A stretch of DNA of 64,000 nt from Mycolicibacterium sp. P1-5 (GTDB lineage: Bacteria > Actinomycetota > Actinomycetes > Mycobacteriales > Mycobacteriaceae), in contig NZ_NPKT01000002.1 of the NCBI RefSeq assembly GCF_008329565.1, positions 248,001 through 312,000 of the forward strand, read 5' to 3'. Position numbers and translations under genes: made by a program. This document shows positions 53,301-60,186 of this stretch, piece after piece. The notes under the pieces are model-generated. The model was not told the origin of the DNA. It made no database searches and saw only the letters and a program-made list of their open reading frames with translations. Positions within the stretch are counted from its first letter, which is position 1, and each line of letters starts with the position of its first letter.

Positions 53301-53765
53301 CTTCCTGCTCACATGGTTCCGCAACACATCGAGGTCTTCGACCGGATCCCGTACAGCTTGGGGGGCAAGGTCGACCGTAACGCCGTCACCAGAGCGCTGG
53401 CAGACCGTGTCGACGCCAGGAGAGCCCACCGGCCCCCATCCGGTTCGGTGCAGTTGGCACTGGCTGCAATCGTCACCGACGTTATCGGTGTGACCCCGAT
53501 AGGAGTCGACGACGACTTCTTCGCCCTCGGCGGCGACTCCGTGTTGGCCACCACCGTCGTGGCACGGATCCGGCAGCGCTTGGACGTGACGGCCATCAGC
53601 GTCGCCGACATCTTCGCCACCCGCACCGTCGAAGCCCTGGCCCGCCGGCTCACCGAGCTGGAGAACGCCGACCGGCTCGAAGCCATCGCCGAGCTGTACC
53701 TCGAAGTGGCCCTCATGGACACCGCCGAGGTCACCTTGGCGCTCACCCGGAGATCTGATGACTGA
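50331..53765 (+). CDS. mbtB: MbtB: ArCP-Cy-A-PCP phenyloxazoline synthase
   Basis: NRPS of 1144 residues. Order: aryl carrier domain with Ser37 in GLDSIRMM; cyclisation domain about 92-520 with D219 and S227 in DMQAADAMS, the Cy form of the HHxxxDG motif; adenylation domain about 545-1040 with FTSGSTGEPKG and an intact Asp in ECDISVLD; PCP with Ser1070 in LGGDSVLA. It joins salicylate to Ser or Thr and closes the oxazoline ring. GTG at 50331 after GGGAGG. It ends with an 8-bp overlap into the next NRPS; mbtC and mbtD, which usually follow, are missing. Confidence 0.94.
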   Translation: MTAVEAAMITDRIAEVLGVDHTDIDPDGDLIAQGLDSIRMMALAGRWRRAGFDVDFARLAAAPSVRAWADLLTTAASADSAPTEPRPSDGKPFPMAPMQHAMWVGRHADQQLGGVAGHLYVEFDGEGVDPERIRRAATRLAERHPMLRVQFLPDGNQRIGTSPATFPVEVVDLCESDDFQHRLAAIRSAKSRQQLDGQVFELTLTLLPGHRSRLHVDLDMQAADAMSYRALMADLAALYRGDSLAEIDYTYQQYRQQLSLSERFDDDRRWWSERVPELPDAPALPVVPAAQRTDPNRPARRWHWLDPDTRDGLFDRARRHGVTPAMTLAASFADTVGSWSADPRFLLNVPLFGREPLHPDVEKVVGDFTSSLLLDVDLADARTPTQRARTLQHTMHEAAAHASYPGLSVLRDISRHRGTQVLAPVVFTSALGLGELFSTDVTTQFGRPEWIISQGPQVLLDAQVTEFNGGILLNWDVRESAFRPGVIDAMFAHHIDEVQRLARDDDAWDSPRRPLLPAAQRAVRDAVNTTATPSGKMLHDGFFDTALRQPDAPAVVSSMGELSYEDLRKQALAVAAALRAGGLPDGGTVAVMGPKTAEQVPALLGIHAAGGAYLPIGVDQPTERAKGILATGAVDMALVCGAELPELPVPCMTVADAIAHGGTAESTSLTGDPERLAYVLFTSGSTGEPKGVEVTHDAAMNTVEFITGHFALGPQDRCLALSTLECDISVLDVFATLATGGAIVVVDEEHRRDPDHWVRLIERHRVTVLHFLPGWLAMLLDVAGPLPTVRVVPTGGDWVTPAMARQLRARAPGVRFAGLGGATETAIHNTICEVTDVPVHWTAIPFGKPLPNNQCRVIGAGGADCPDWVVGELWIGGRGLARGYRGRSDLTAERFVEHDGVRWYRTGDLARFWPDGTCEFVGRADHRVKISGYRVELGEVEAALHRVPGVLGAVAVTVPGRTGSHDQLAAAVQLATETARDSLRAQLVKDLPAHMVPQHIEVFDRIPYSLGGKVDRNAVTRALADRVDARRAHRPPSGSVQLALAAIVTDVIGVTPIGVDDDFFALGGDSVLATTVVARIRQRLDVTAISVADIFATRTVEALARRLTELENADRLEAIAELYLEVALMDTAEVTLALTRRSDD

Positions 53766-59700: not shown

Positions 59701-60186
59701 CGTGCTTCGGTGGCCGCGGCGCTACCGGGTTACATGACGCCGGCGACGATCTCGGTGCTCGACGTGATGCCCGCTACCGAATCCGGAAAGCTGAACCGGC
59801 CCGCGCTGCCACGACCCGAGGTGCACACCACCGGTGCGAGCGAACCGGCCAGAACCGACACCGAGCGGGCTGTCGCAACGGCGATGGAACAACTGCTGGA
59901 CGTGGTCGCGATCGGCAGGGACGACGATTTCTTCGCCCTCGGCGGGGACAGCATCCTGTCGGTACAGCTGGCCGCGCGGATGCGTGGCGTGGGTCTGACT
60001 GTCGAACCCCGGACGATCTTCGAACATCCCACGGTGGCAACACTGGCCGCCGCGATCGACGACGGGCACGCGGGTCAGGGTGATGGCCGCACCGACAACC
60101 GGCACGAGGCGATGAGTGTGTCCGGATTGTCGGCGGCCGATCTGGCCGGCCTGACGTCATCGTGGTCCAAGGCTCGCTCCACGTGA
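53758..60186 (+). CDS. Dimodular NRPS, MbtE-like with an extra A-T module
   Basis: NRPS of 2142 residues arranged C-A-T-C-A-T. Module 1: C with HHIAWDDAS near 169, A about 480-960 with normal Asp in SFDVSIGE (near 656), T with Ser1002 in GGHSLLA. Module 2: C with HHIAADHWS near 1188, A from about 1520 with FTSGSTGKPKG near 1675, T with Ser2065 in GGDSILS. In the second A domain the usual FDxS is TFLEGC, so the Asp that holds the alpha-amino group is Leu1719. No ketoreductase is inserted. M. tuberculosis MbtE (about 1680 residues) has no second A-T. Overlaps mbtB and mbtF, so all three are coupled. Confidence 0.92.
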   Translation: MTDTLADNFDQQRLELLRQRLSQRGLLAELTTAEPAVMSDGQRRMWFVHSIDSTGALLNVCVSYRLTGPLDPARLRAAVNAVAARHPVLRTTYQTDAEGEPRPTVHDSLDPGWAEHDLRELGAQARGLRLEVLAQRAFTTSFDLSAESPLRITVVRTGSDEHVLLLAAHHIAWDDASWRVFFTDLSRAYQDEALAPLPSAAAPIPGSDDADVEYWRALLAAPPEPLELPGPKGSAVPTEWRAARHATRLDARTVGAVGKLAHQSGATPYMVLLAAFSALVHRYTHANDFLVAAPVLNRASDDVIGYYGNTVAVRMRPNRWGTFADLVEVARDAAVGAFAHQRVNLDRVVRELNPDRRYGVERMARVGFGMRHPDGDGFNPPGIICQRAELRGQFAQLPLGFMVEFVGDEAEVEVEYLTEVIDSGLAEQMLDSFVVLLGDALAQPDRVLADLTLLDDADAAWLYRMSRGDDFVCSPRTLGDLIEDQAARQPDATAVVYEGRRLTYRELNEAANRHAHWLAARDIGAEDRVAVLLEKSPELVITAVGIAKAGAVYLPVDPEYPDDRIAYILADSDPKIVVREPITGVDDFPAHDPGPSDLARPFGPDNTAYLIYTSGSTGLPKGVPVPHRPVADYFRWFAQEYQIGPDDRLLQVASPSFDVSIGEIFGILAQGARLVIPRSDGLRDIGYLTDLLRREGITSMHFVPSLLGLFLSLPGVEQWRTLRRVPIGGEALPGELADKFHATFDALLHNFYGPTEAVINASRYKVEGRHGTRVVPIGAPKINTQIYLLDDALRPVPTDVIGEIYIGGTQLAHGYHNRPALTAERFVADPFIPGGRLYRSGDLARRNRDGDLEFVGRADEQVKVRGFRIELGEVAAAVNVDPSVGNAVVIADELPHLGKSLIAYVAPTAGDVVDVERIRARVAAALPDYMIPAAYVVVDEIPVTANGKLDRAALPAPEIGPVVEYRAPVTETERTIAALFGRLLGAGEVGRDDSFFALGGHSLLATKLVAAIRQSCGVEVSVRDVFEAGSLVELAALIDGLGDGRAHVTRPALVAAYGDPERAPLSAAQLRSWFQYRVDGPSPVNNIPFAARLTGPCDVDALVAAVHDVIGRHEILRTVYREIDGVPHQVIESGDDVQVRHIDGPDGGWLTTQLHAECAHRFELETELPIRITVLRTPAECVLSMVVHHIAADHWSSGVLFTDVLTAYRARREGTAPSWRPLPIQYRDYAAWQIRLLSDADLMDAQCQFWVRQLDGFPEDTGLRPDLPRPPMAGGAGAAIPLHVDGAVRERLTALSRELGITEFMLLQTAVAVVLSKAGGGHDIPLGTPVAGRTDAELDRLVGFFVNILVLRNDLSGNPTLRDALLRSREMALAAYANSDLPFDRVVDAVNPVRSLARNPLFGVVVHVREELPEDQLIEAGPDGGTRFSALEPTFDVAHADLSVNFFVGDDGYRGHIIYRTELYHPSTMERFAGWLSQVIEAFAAGPETRLRDVVLLGDAEQHQVLQQSRGIESPVDRPRTVPGLLEASRVWGQDRVALRCRDEELDYPALHQRSDRFAHLLVRHGVGPGSLVGMSMRRGIDLVVALVGIMKAGAGFFPLDPTYPAARKQFMLDDVEPAVVVVTAEAGASMPAVEGVAVISMDDPAVRVELESADPVAALTRPHPDDPMYLMFTSGSTGKPKGVVGTHRAMSTRLIWQLKHYPMWGQDIRLAQAPMTFLEGCIETLAGLAAGATLIVADDVEHRDAEAIAGLIERHSVVQVTGVASLVSALVDSAPNAVRALRRLVTCGEPVNVSLLQRLIACVGDGPVELLNAIGATETSGALIRGPLDVPIPKIGVPMEGSQVYLLDEALQQVPVGVVGELYYAGEQIARGYWRQPALTASRFIANPYAAEPGSRFYRSGDRGRWTEDGRLEFVGRTDHQVKVRGFRVELAEVEAALKAADGVAVAAARTWDGPSGASLAGYVVPHEPVDDPAMFAASVRASVAAALPGYMTPATISVLDVMPATESGKLNRPALPRPEVHTTGASEPARTDTERAVATAMEQLLDVVAIGRDDDFFALGGDSILSVQLAARMRGVGLTVEPRTIFEHPTVATLAAAIDDGHAGQGDGRTDNRHEAMSVSGLSAADLAGLTSSWSKARST

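Follow-up and report, generated by a model that had tools for sequence, protein, structure and literature searches.

How does a mycobactin cluster provide the central linker of its siderophore when it lacks mbtC and mbtD, the polyketide synthase (PKS) genes to which linker supply is assigned, by prediction, in the literature covered? The question is raised by a stretch of 64,000 nucleotides from Mycolicibacterium sp. P1-5 (contig NZ_NPKT01000002.1, positions 248,001 to 312,000; termed the window below). In this stretch the presumed mbtB gene is followed at once by a gene for MbtE, a nonribosomal peptide synthetase (NRPS) of two modules, with condensation (C), adenylation (A) and carrier (T) domains in the order C-A-T-C-A-T. 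The mbt and ecc names used here are our assignments, taken in part from orthologues. The reading preferred here, at a probability of roughly 0.55, is that the retained A domain of the second module (A2) itself loads the linker, the likeliest substrate being a short 3-hydroxy acid, for instance 3-hydroxybutyrate, and that the C domain of that module (C2) forms the usual ester.

Absence of mbtC and mbtD

The 3′-end of mbtB and the start of the MbtE gene share eight bases, an overlap that leaves room for no gene between them. The earlier note on this DNA had described mbtB as running straight into the C-A-T-C-A-T protein, with neither mbtC nor mbtD before mbtF, and the coordinates and domain matches confirm this. 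Condensation, AMP-binding, AMP-binding_C and PP-binding each match two stretches of MbtE, and the core motifs of its condensation, carrier and adenylation domains are in place. The mbtC and mbtD genes that the same note had envisaged just past the end of the window are not there; the genes downstream of MbtE are, in order, mbtF, mbtG, eccA and eccB (the last three beyond the window, in stretch L001, 12358-17395).

When the whole genome (G000; 5.42 Mb in 51 contigs) was searched, only distant PKSs were retrieved. The best match to MbtD among 58 candidates, all of them scored, was 37%, and the best match to MbtC among 45, again all scored, was 47%. Both fall in one protein of 2471 residues encoded elsewhere in the genome, the MbtD match in its acyltransferase (AT) part. 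This protein is a PKS consisting of an AMP ligase, an acyl carrier protein (ACP), a ketosynthase (KS), the AT and a dehydratase (DH), in which no ketoreductase (KR) match was found. A location of mbtC and mbtD past the window or elsewhere in the genome was accordingly rejected.

MbtD was also absent from seven further genomes of the clade that have the same layout (66-67 of 66-84 candidates scored in each). No match of MbtD length was found in the 8 clade genomes, the best in two of them being 30-32% over the AT part, and nothing MbtD-like lies between mbtB and mbtE in the clade loci read. A thioesterase gene was detected in 0 of 8 PKS-less loci, as against 19 of 19 other loci tested that have mbtC/D (the query's own locus among the 19). 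As the thioesterase has gone too, it was probably lost together with mbtC and mbtD as one block.

The mycobactin parts that are present comprise mbtI, mbtA, mbtB, the first module of MbtE, mbtF and mbtG, and orthologues of the last two were found in 10 relatives. The first A domain (A1) shares 69-78% identity with the A1 domains of the same MbtE type outside the clade; we take the first module and MbtF to be specific for lysine. Since the mbtC/mbtD pair is absent though the other tested parts are present, the cluster is considered a mycobactin variant and not a plain member.

A2 and the two probable routes across mycobacteria

A2 carries the motif TFLEGC, in which Leu is residue 1719 and Glu residue 1720; the corresponding motif is FDVS in A1, CDIS in MbtB and FDAA in MbtF. 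When A2 and A1 are aligned profile to profile, no gap falls in this region, which puts Leu1719 in the place of Asp235 (GrsA numbering), the residue that binds the amino group. The replacement of that Asp in A2 alone, as proposed earlier, is thereby upheld. An Asp at the next position had been named as a possible substitute, and this proved half correct: residue 236 is acidic, but it is Glu rather than Asp. Extraction of the ten-residue code by alignment, also suggested earlier, gave LEITVCAGAK (330/331 uncertain). Decay of the domain was rejected, as its core motifs are in place and 35 A2 sequences contain no stops. A structure model of A2 has a mean predicted local distance difference test score (pLDDT) of 65.9, with residues 299-311 and 318-416 below 50.

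Named genomes were scanned for A2, and the best 80 of 106 loci, all from mycobacteria, are termed the named loci. Leu235-Glu236 is found in all 80, whether the PKS is kept or not; Leu1719 does not track the loss of the PKS and is common to all A2 sequences aligned. In 13 of the 80, mbtB adjoins mbtE and eccA follows mbtG (M. rhodesiae, M. sphagni, M. vinylchloridicum, M. pinniadriaticum and relatives), and the survey for this protein without mbtC/mbtD that had been proposed thus gave a positive result. All 13 have the code LEITVCAGAK. The other 67 have LEMTV[G/S][N/D]G[A/G]K (Lys unread in 5 cut-off sequences), and mbtC and/or mbtD were seen in 63 of them. The remaining four could not be decided, as the contigs of L051, L076 and L095 end too early and in the 3.5 kb before A1 of L110 only the end of C1 was recognised. 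In a separate search of 61 genomes, A2 was present at an identity of at least 64% in 11, the other matches listed being at most 44%; the domain is therefore not a product of chance.

The best 120 of 6055 proteins from a protein database search, judged from their sequences alone, comprised 28 with LEITVCAGAK (the window's included), 90 with the second kind of code and two with an Asp code, from outside mycobacteria or unnamed. The closest named A2 among them is that of Mycobacterium sp. EPa45 (91%). No counterpart of Leu235-Glu236 was met outside mycobacteria, where codes were read for two proteins only, both with Asp. A third pocket type, LEMTVS[N/D]GG (with Lys where read), was observed in L051, L110 and 17 of the same 120 proteins, from M. 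talmoniae, M. shimoidei, M. malmoense and others; it may perhaps correspond to another linker.

MbtE of this type was found in 109 of 148 genomes drawn from the genus. A2 and an MbtD of the linked type occur together in 38 of the 109, A2 only in 8, which make up the window's clade, and MbtD only in 62 (55 of the linked type and 7 with a distant MbtD at 33-38%). One genome, G116, has neither intact: an mbtC is present, but the mbtD region is broken, and so are the frames of mbtB and mbtE. Among the loci seen, no intact one lacked both routes. Some of these genomes are also named loci (e.g. G024 is L035 and G018 is L041), so the two counts were not summed. Per genome, 5-10 candidates were scored. 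For MbtD the scoring was repeated in 12 genomes with 46-67 candidates in each, which is short of the full set in 7 of them, and for A2 it was repeated in 8 genomes. G094, missed by the A2 searches, was placed with the genomes having A2 and MbtD once its locus had been read, so a few other A2-lacking genomes may also be misses; loci were read for 15 of the 63 such genomes, and G174, G064 and G165, among those unread, have long frames. G097 was kept outside the 109: two stops interrupt its A2 match, A1 gave no match and the mbt locus (L132) is in pieces; no intact MbtE was seen, and it looks like a natural loss. Mycolicibacter sp. MYC340 carries two A2-bearing mbt loci on one chromosome (L074, L093); one MbtE groups with those of slow growers and the other has a Mycolicibacter-type code.

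The earlier note had taken the extra module and the change from Asp to Leu as a replacement invented in this cluster. That view is not supported: the module and the change predate this cluster and are found beside mbtC/mbtD in many mycobacteria, and A2, being widespread in the genus, was rejected as a novelty of the clade. What is new in the clade is the loss of the thioesterase-mbtC-mbtD block, together with three other changes in the pocket.

A remnant of A2 was found between C2 and the second carrier domain (T2) in 11 of 11 tested A2-lacking loci of this MbtE type (L114-L124). The remnants occupy 71-185 residues and match A2 within its residues 319-503 at 35-57% identity, with E values from 4e-6 (the weakest, G011) to 4e-31, and T2 there retains the Ser of GGDS. 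No remnant was found in 5 loci of a distant MbtE type, which has the C-A-T-C-T order published for nocobactin NbtD (PMC7413640). In a tree of C1-A1 sequences, Mycolicibacter with both routes is basal and the PKS-less clade forms one group (support 100), the sister of which is a group (91) of A2-lost species (95) and slow growers with both routes (100). The two losses thus sit on two different branches. The tree includes one artefact row, G031 (MbtE split in two frames, the wrong piece used), and no sequence from L051.

With the both-route state basal, both routes look ancestral, and the reciprocal counts of A2 and mbtD together with the A2 remnants make it likely that the ancestor had both. 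It is likely that the window's clade lost the thioesterase-mbtC-mbtD block and that others lost A2, the direction of the losses being deduced from these data; each route seems to have disappeared a single time in the tree sampled. One building block could thus probably be obtained in two interchangeable ways. Mean pairwise identity within the PKS-less clade is 87.3% for A2 and 87.5% for A1, as would be expected if A2 had become the sole route. For two PKS-keeping clades the values for A2 and A1 are 76.0 versus 85.2% and 87.9 versus 91.8%. The conservation of C2 shifts in the same way as that of A2. What the sequences themselves show is that the genes are missing, that the second module is intact, that the pocket has changed and that A2 has been lost reciprocally in other mycobacteria.

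Candidate linkers

The substrate, the ester and the siderophore itself we infer as follows. A2 would activate a free β-hydroxy acid with ATP and load it onto T2. C2 would then use the C3 group of the linker acid to take the chain from the first carrier domain (T1); the hydroxyl on T2 would thereby receive the T1-bound carbonyl derived from lysine, which gives the usual mycobactin ester, and MbtF would add the last lysine. The group held by Glu236 could be a hydroxyl or else an ammonium, the role that Asp236 may have in β-alanine A domains. Where both routes persist, the PKS and thioesterase might make a free acid that is then activated by A2, which would explain the conservation of A2 there. 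Of the earlier proposal that an NRPS module loads the linker acid directly, the absence of a PKS and the intact second module at the linker position stand, and the direct loading is probable.

The loss of Asp235 argues against an α-amino acid and against a β-amino acid of the VinN type. An aliphatic residue at 235, as Leu1719 is here, is found in the A domains for α-hydroxy and α-keto acids described in PMC11253843. A 3-hydroxy acid is favoured by the position in the chain, by the ester of nocobactin and by the presence of 3-hydroxybutyrate in mycobactins (PMC7413640). The pocket, too, speaks for this interpretation: in the PKS-less clade, 15 of 506 A2 positions are fixed differently, comprising three of the 10 code positions (239 Ile, 301 Cys and 322 Ala) and 12 of the other 496 (Fisher p 0.0022). 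For A1 of the same proteins, as a control, 10 of 495 positions differ and none of the 10 in the code.

Several points weigh against this interpretation. Only about two events, with about one clade per loss, underlie the reciprocal pattern, and A2 is conserved also where both routes persist, so it may do something other than replace the PKS. The comparison of pocket positions concerns one tree branch and was made after the fact, and is therefore a strong hint and no test; when 34 pocket-lining positions are counted instead of 10, significance is lost (p 0.07). A β13-β14 loop shorter by one residue, a VinN-type trait considered as an argument for a β-substrate, was dropped because the gap moved between alignments: a gap of one residue at 330 in one, a gap of four residues at a later place in the profile alignment. 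Glu236 is unexplained by a hydroxy acid, and its pairing resembles β-alanine codes, which start V-D. Neither a siderophore structure nor an enzyme assay for the PKS-less clade was found in the literature searched.

In a less likely alternative, A2 loads a β-amino acid (β-alanine, 3-aminobutyrate or 3-aminoisobutyrate) and the linker ester becomes an amide. An acidic Glu is invariant at 236, beside the lost Asp; the backbone would be as long as that of a 3-hydroxy acid; and the bulkier residues at 236 and 301 typical of VinN are seen in Glu236 and Cys301 (residue 301 being Gly or Ser in the other clades). The Leu-Glu pair is, however, common to the PKS-keeping clades, the mycobactins of which have a hydroxy-acid linker. 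Phenolate-oxazoline siderophores with β-alanine or β-aminoisobutyrate linkers are known in the kasichelins, madurastatin also being named (PMC12305651), but VinN, IdnL1, CmiS6 and HitB keep the equivalent of Asp235 for the β-amino group (PMC11253843, PMC11284099), where A2 has Leu. It is rather doubtful that the clade makes an all-amide mycobactin by peptide-synthetase chemistry alone, beside the ESX-3 on which it depends. A separate NRPS pair on contig 15 (44623-68101; L002-L003) has six A domains, three of which share the code DFWSVGM.. (last positions shifted); it was dropped as a β-alanine control, since an acidic 236 occurs in none of the six.

Less probable is another amino-free acid (α-hydroxy, α-keto or branched 3-hydroxy), which would make the linker new in length or branching. 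Leu235 suits α-hydroxy and α-keto A domains, and the three pocket residues that differ from the PKS-keeping clades suggest that the acid may differ as well. Against this, no ketoreductase domain was found in MbtE, and a two-carbon linker would presumably alter the chelating geometry.

That the linker comes from a PKS encoded in trans, with A2 idle or only a docking partner, is very improbable. In its favour, the genome does hold other PKSs (the 47% match to MbtC), and M. abscessus has its predicted mbtC/mbtD (MAB_2120c/MAB_2119c) at a distance from MAB_2245 and MAB_2247c (mbtI, mbtA) (PMC9505556). Against it, the 2471-residue protein, with no KR match, is no MbtC/D pair, the clade genomes yielded no match of MbtD length, and A2 has its core motifs and, within the clade, equals A1 in conservation.

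Features of the locus and known systems

The features of the locus are listed below. Cluster order is mbtK-like gene, 440-residue protein, mbtI, mbtA (opposite strand), mbtB, MbtE, mbtF, mbtG, eccA and eccB.

Table 1. Positions in the window of the mbt genes, MbtE domains and residues, and neighbouring features
Feature	Position	Strand	Remarks
Ms_AS-5 (Mycobacterium small RNA)	44447-44491		
mbtK-like N-acyltransferase	45085..45774	+	PF13523, 143 bits; mbtK label presumed
Two iron-box (IdeR)-like 19-mers, at 45826 and 45851	45826..45869		15/19 each
Ala/Thr-rich protein, 440 residues	45918-47240	+	No Pfam or NCBIfam match
mbtI, salicylate synthase	47286..48638	+	TIGR03494, 542 bits (cut-off 325)
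mbtA, salicyl-AMP ligase type	48620..50278	-	TIGR02275, 569 bits, under dihydroxybenzoate (DHB) equivalog cut-off 723.55
Two iron-box-like 19-mers between mbtA and mbtB	50277..50315		14/19 each
mbtB: carrier, condensation/cyclization, A, carrier domains	50331..53765	+	No thioesterase domain found
MbtE, two modules, C-A-T-C-A-T, 2142 residues	53758..60186	+	
A1, lysine-type slot, code DVGHPGFINK	55168..56652	+	Last two pocket positions shifted in one alignment
C2	56938..58287	+	HHIAAD motif intact
A2, code LEITVCAGAK	58300..59817	+	330/331 uncertain
Leu1719-Glu1720 (GrsA 235-236)	58912..58917	+	Identical in all 80 named loci
Ile1723 (GrsA 239)	58924..58926	+	Met in 67 named loci outside clade
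Cys1788 (GrsA 301)	59119..59121	+	Gly or Ser in 67 named loci outside clade
Ala1814 (GrsA 322)	59197..59199	+	Asn, once Asp, in 67 named loci outside clade
T2, LGGDSI	59845..60057	+	Limits approximate
mbtF	60162..64000	+	Continues beyond window to about 64457

The Ala/Thr-rich protein has two of the iron-box-like sites upstream. Its conservation is 83-85% in G004 and G024, and the stretch of G018 examined gave no match. The sites were scored against a presumed iron-box consensus. At three mismatches no IdeR site was found in the window and one in L001; a looser scan gave weak sites of 13-15 of 19 in the window and one of 16/19 before eccA in L001. The mbt cluster adjoins an ESX-3-like locus in 13 of 13 named PKS-less loci, and eccA was found in none of the examined flanks of the other 67. 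ESX-3 is linked to mycobactin-mediated iron uptake, and in Segniliparus rotundus mycobactin genes reportedly lie in an ESX-3 locus (PMC4791881). Given that tie, the arrangement looks like a super-locus for iron uptake.

The mbt-1 cluster (mbtA-J) of M. tuberculosis and M. smegmatis shares with the window mbtI, mbtA, mbtB, the first MbtE module, mbtF and mbtG, in matching order. The window differs in lacking the thioesterase, mbtC and mbtD, and in having a full A2 where the 11 A2-lacking loci of this MbtE type tested have a remnant. The two-module MbtE of slow growers and Mycolicibacter (M. kansasii, M. colombiense, Mycolicibacter kumamotonensis) also has A2 with Leu235-Glu236, at 58-72% identity to the window's A2 among the loci listed, but it occurs with mbtC and/or mbtD in 63 of 67 such loci and with the second kind of code. 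In nocobactin synthesis, the ester to a β-hydroxy acid made by a PKS is probably formed by NbtD, a C-A-T-C-T protein; C2-T2 is thus common to the probable ester step, whereas NbtD lacks A2 and its linker acid comes from a PKS, NbtB (KS) and NbtC (AT-KR-T) (PMC7413640). The kasichelin NRPS of Streptomyces likewise makes a phenolate-oxazoline siderophore with a linker from an NRPS module, although that linker is of the β-alanine or β-aminobutyric type and the product has a single hydroxamate (PMC12305651). With StsA and EnSyn, A2 has in common an aliphatic residue replacing Asp235, but their modules take α-substituted acids and no Glu236 is mentioned for them in the available part of the source; StsA has Met415 at the proline of GPTE (PMC11253843). 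A2 reads GATE at this motif, as does the A domain of MbtB (serine slot). The nearest published oddity is M. abscessus, in which mbtC/mbtD sit elsewhere in the genome and the part of the product ascribed to these two genes bears a long alkyl chain (PMC9505556).

The literature searched, in which key biochemical work was not covered, yielded no account of A2 or of a mycobactin cluster without a PKS, and no mention of remains of a second adenylation domain in MbtE. The MbtE of many mycobacteria carries such remains. The A domains with the invariant Leu235-Glu236 would form a family for β-hydroxy or β-amino acids, a class of substrates with few typed examples. The three sets of species, in which the PKS was lost, A2 was lost or both were kept, constitute a natural experiment on what each route supplies.

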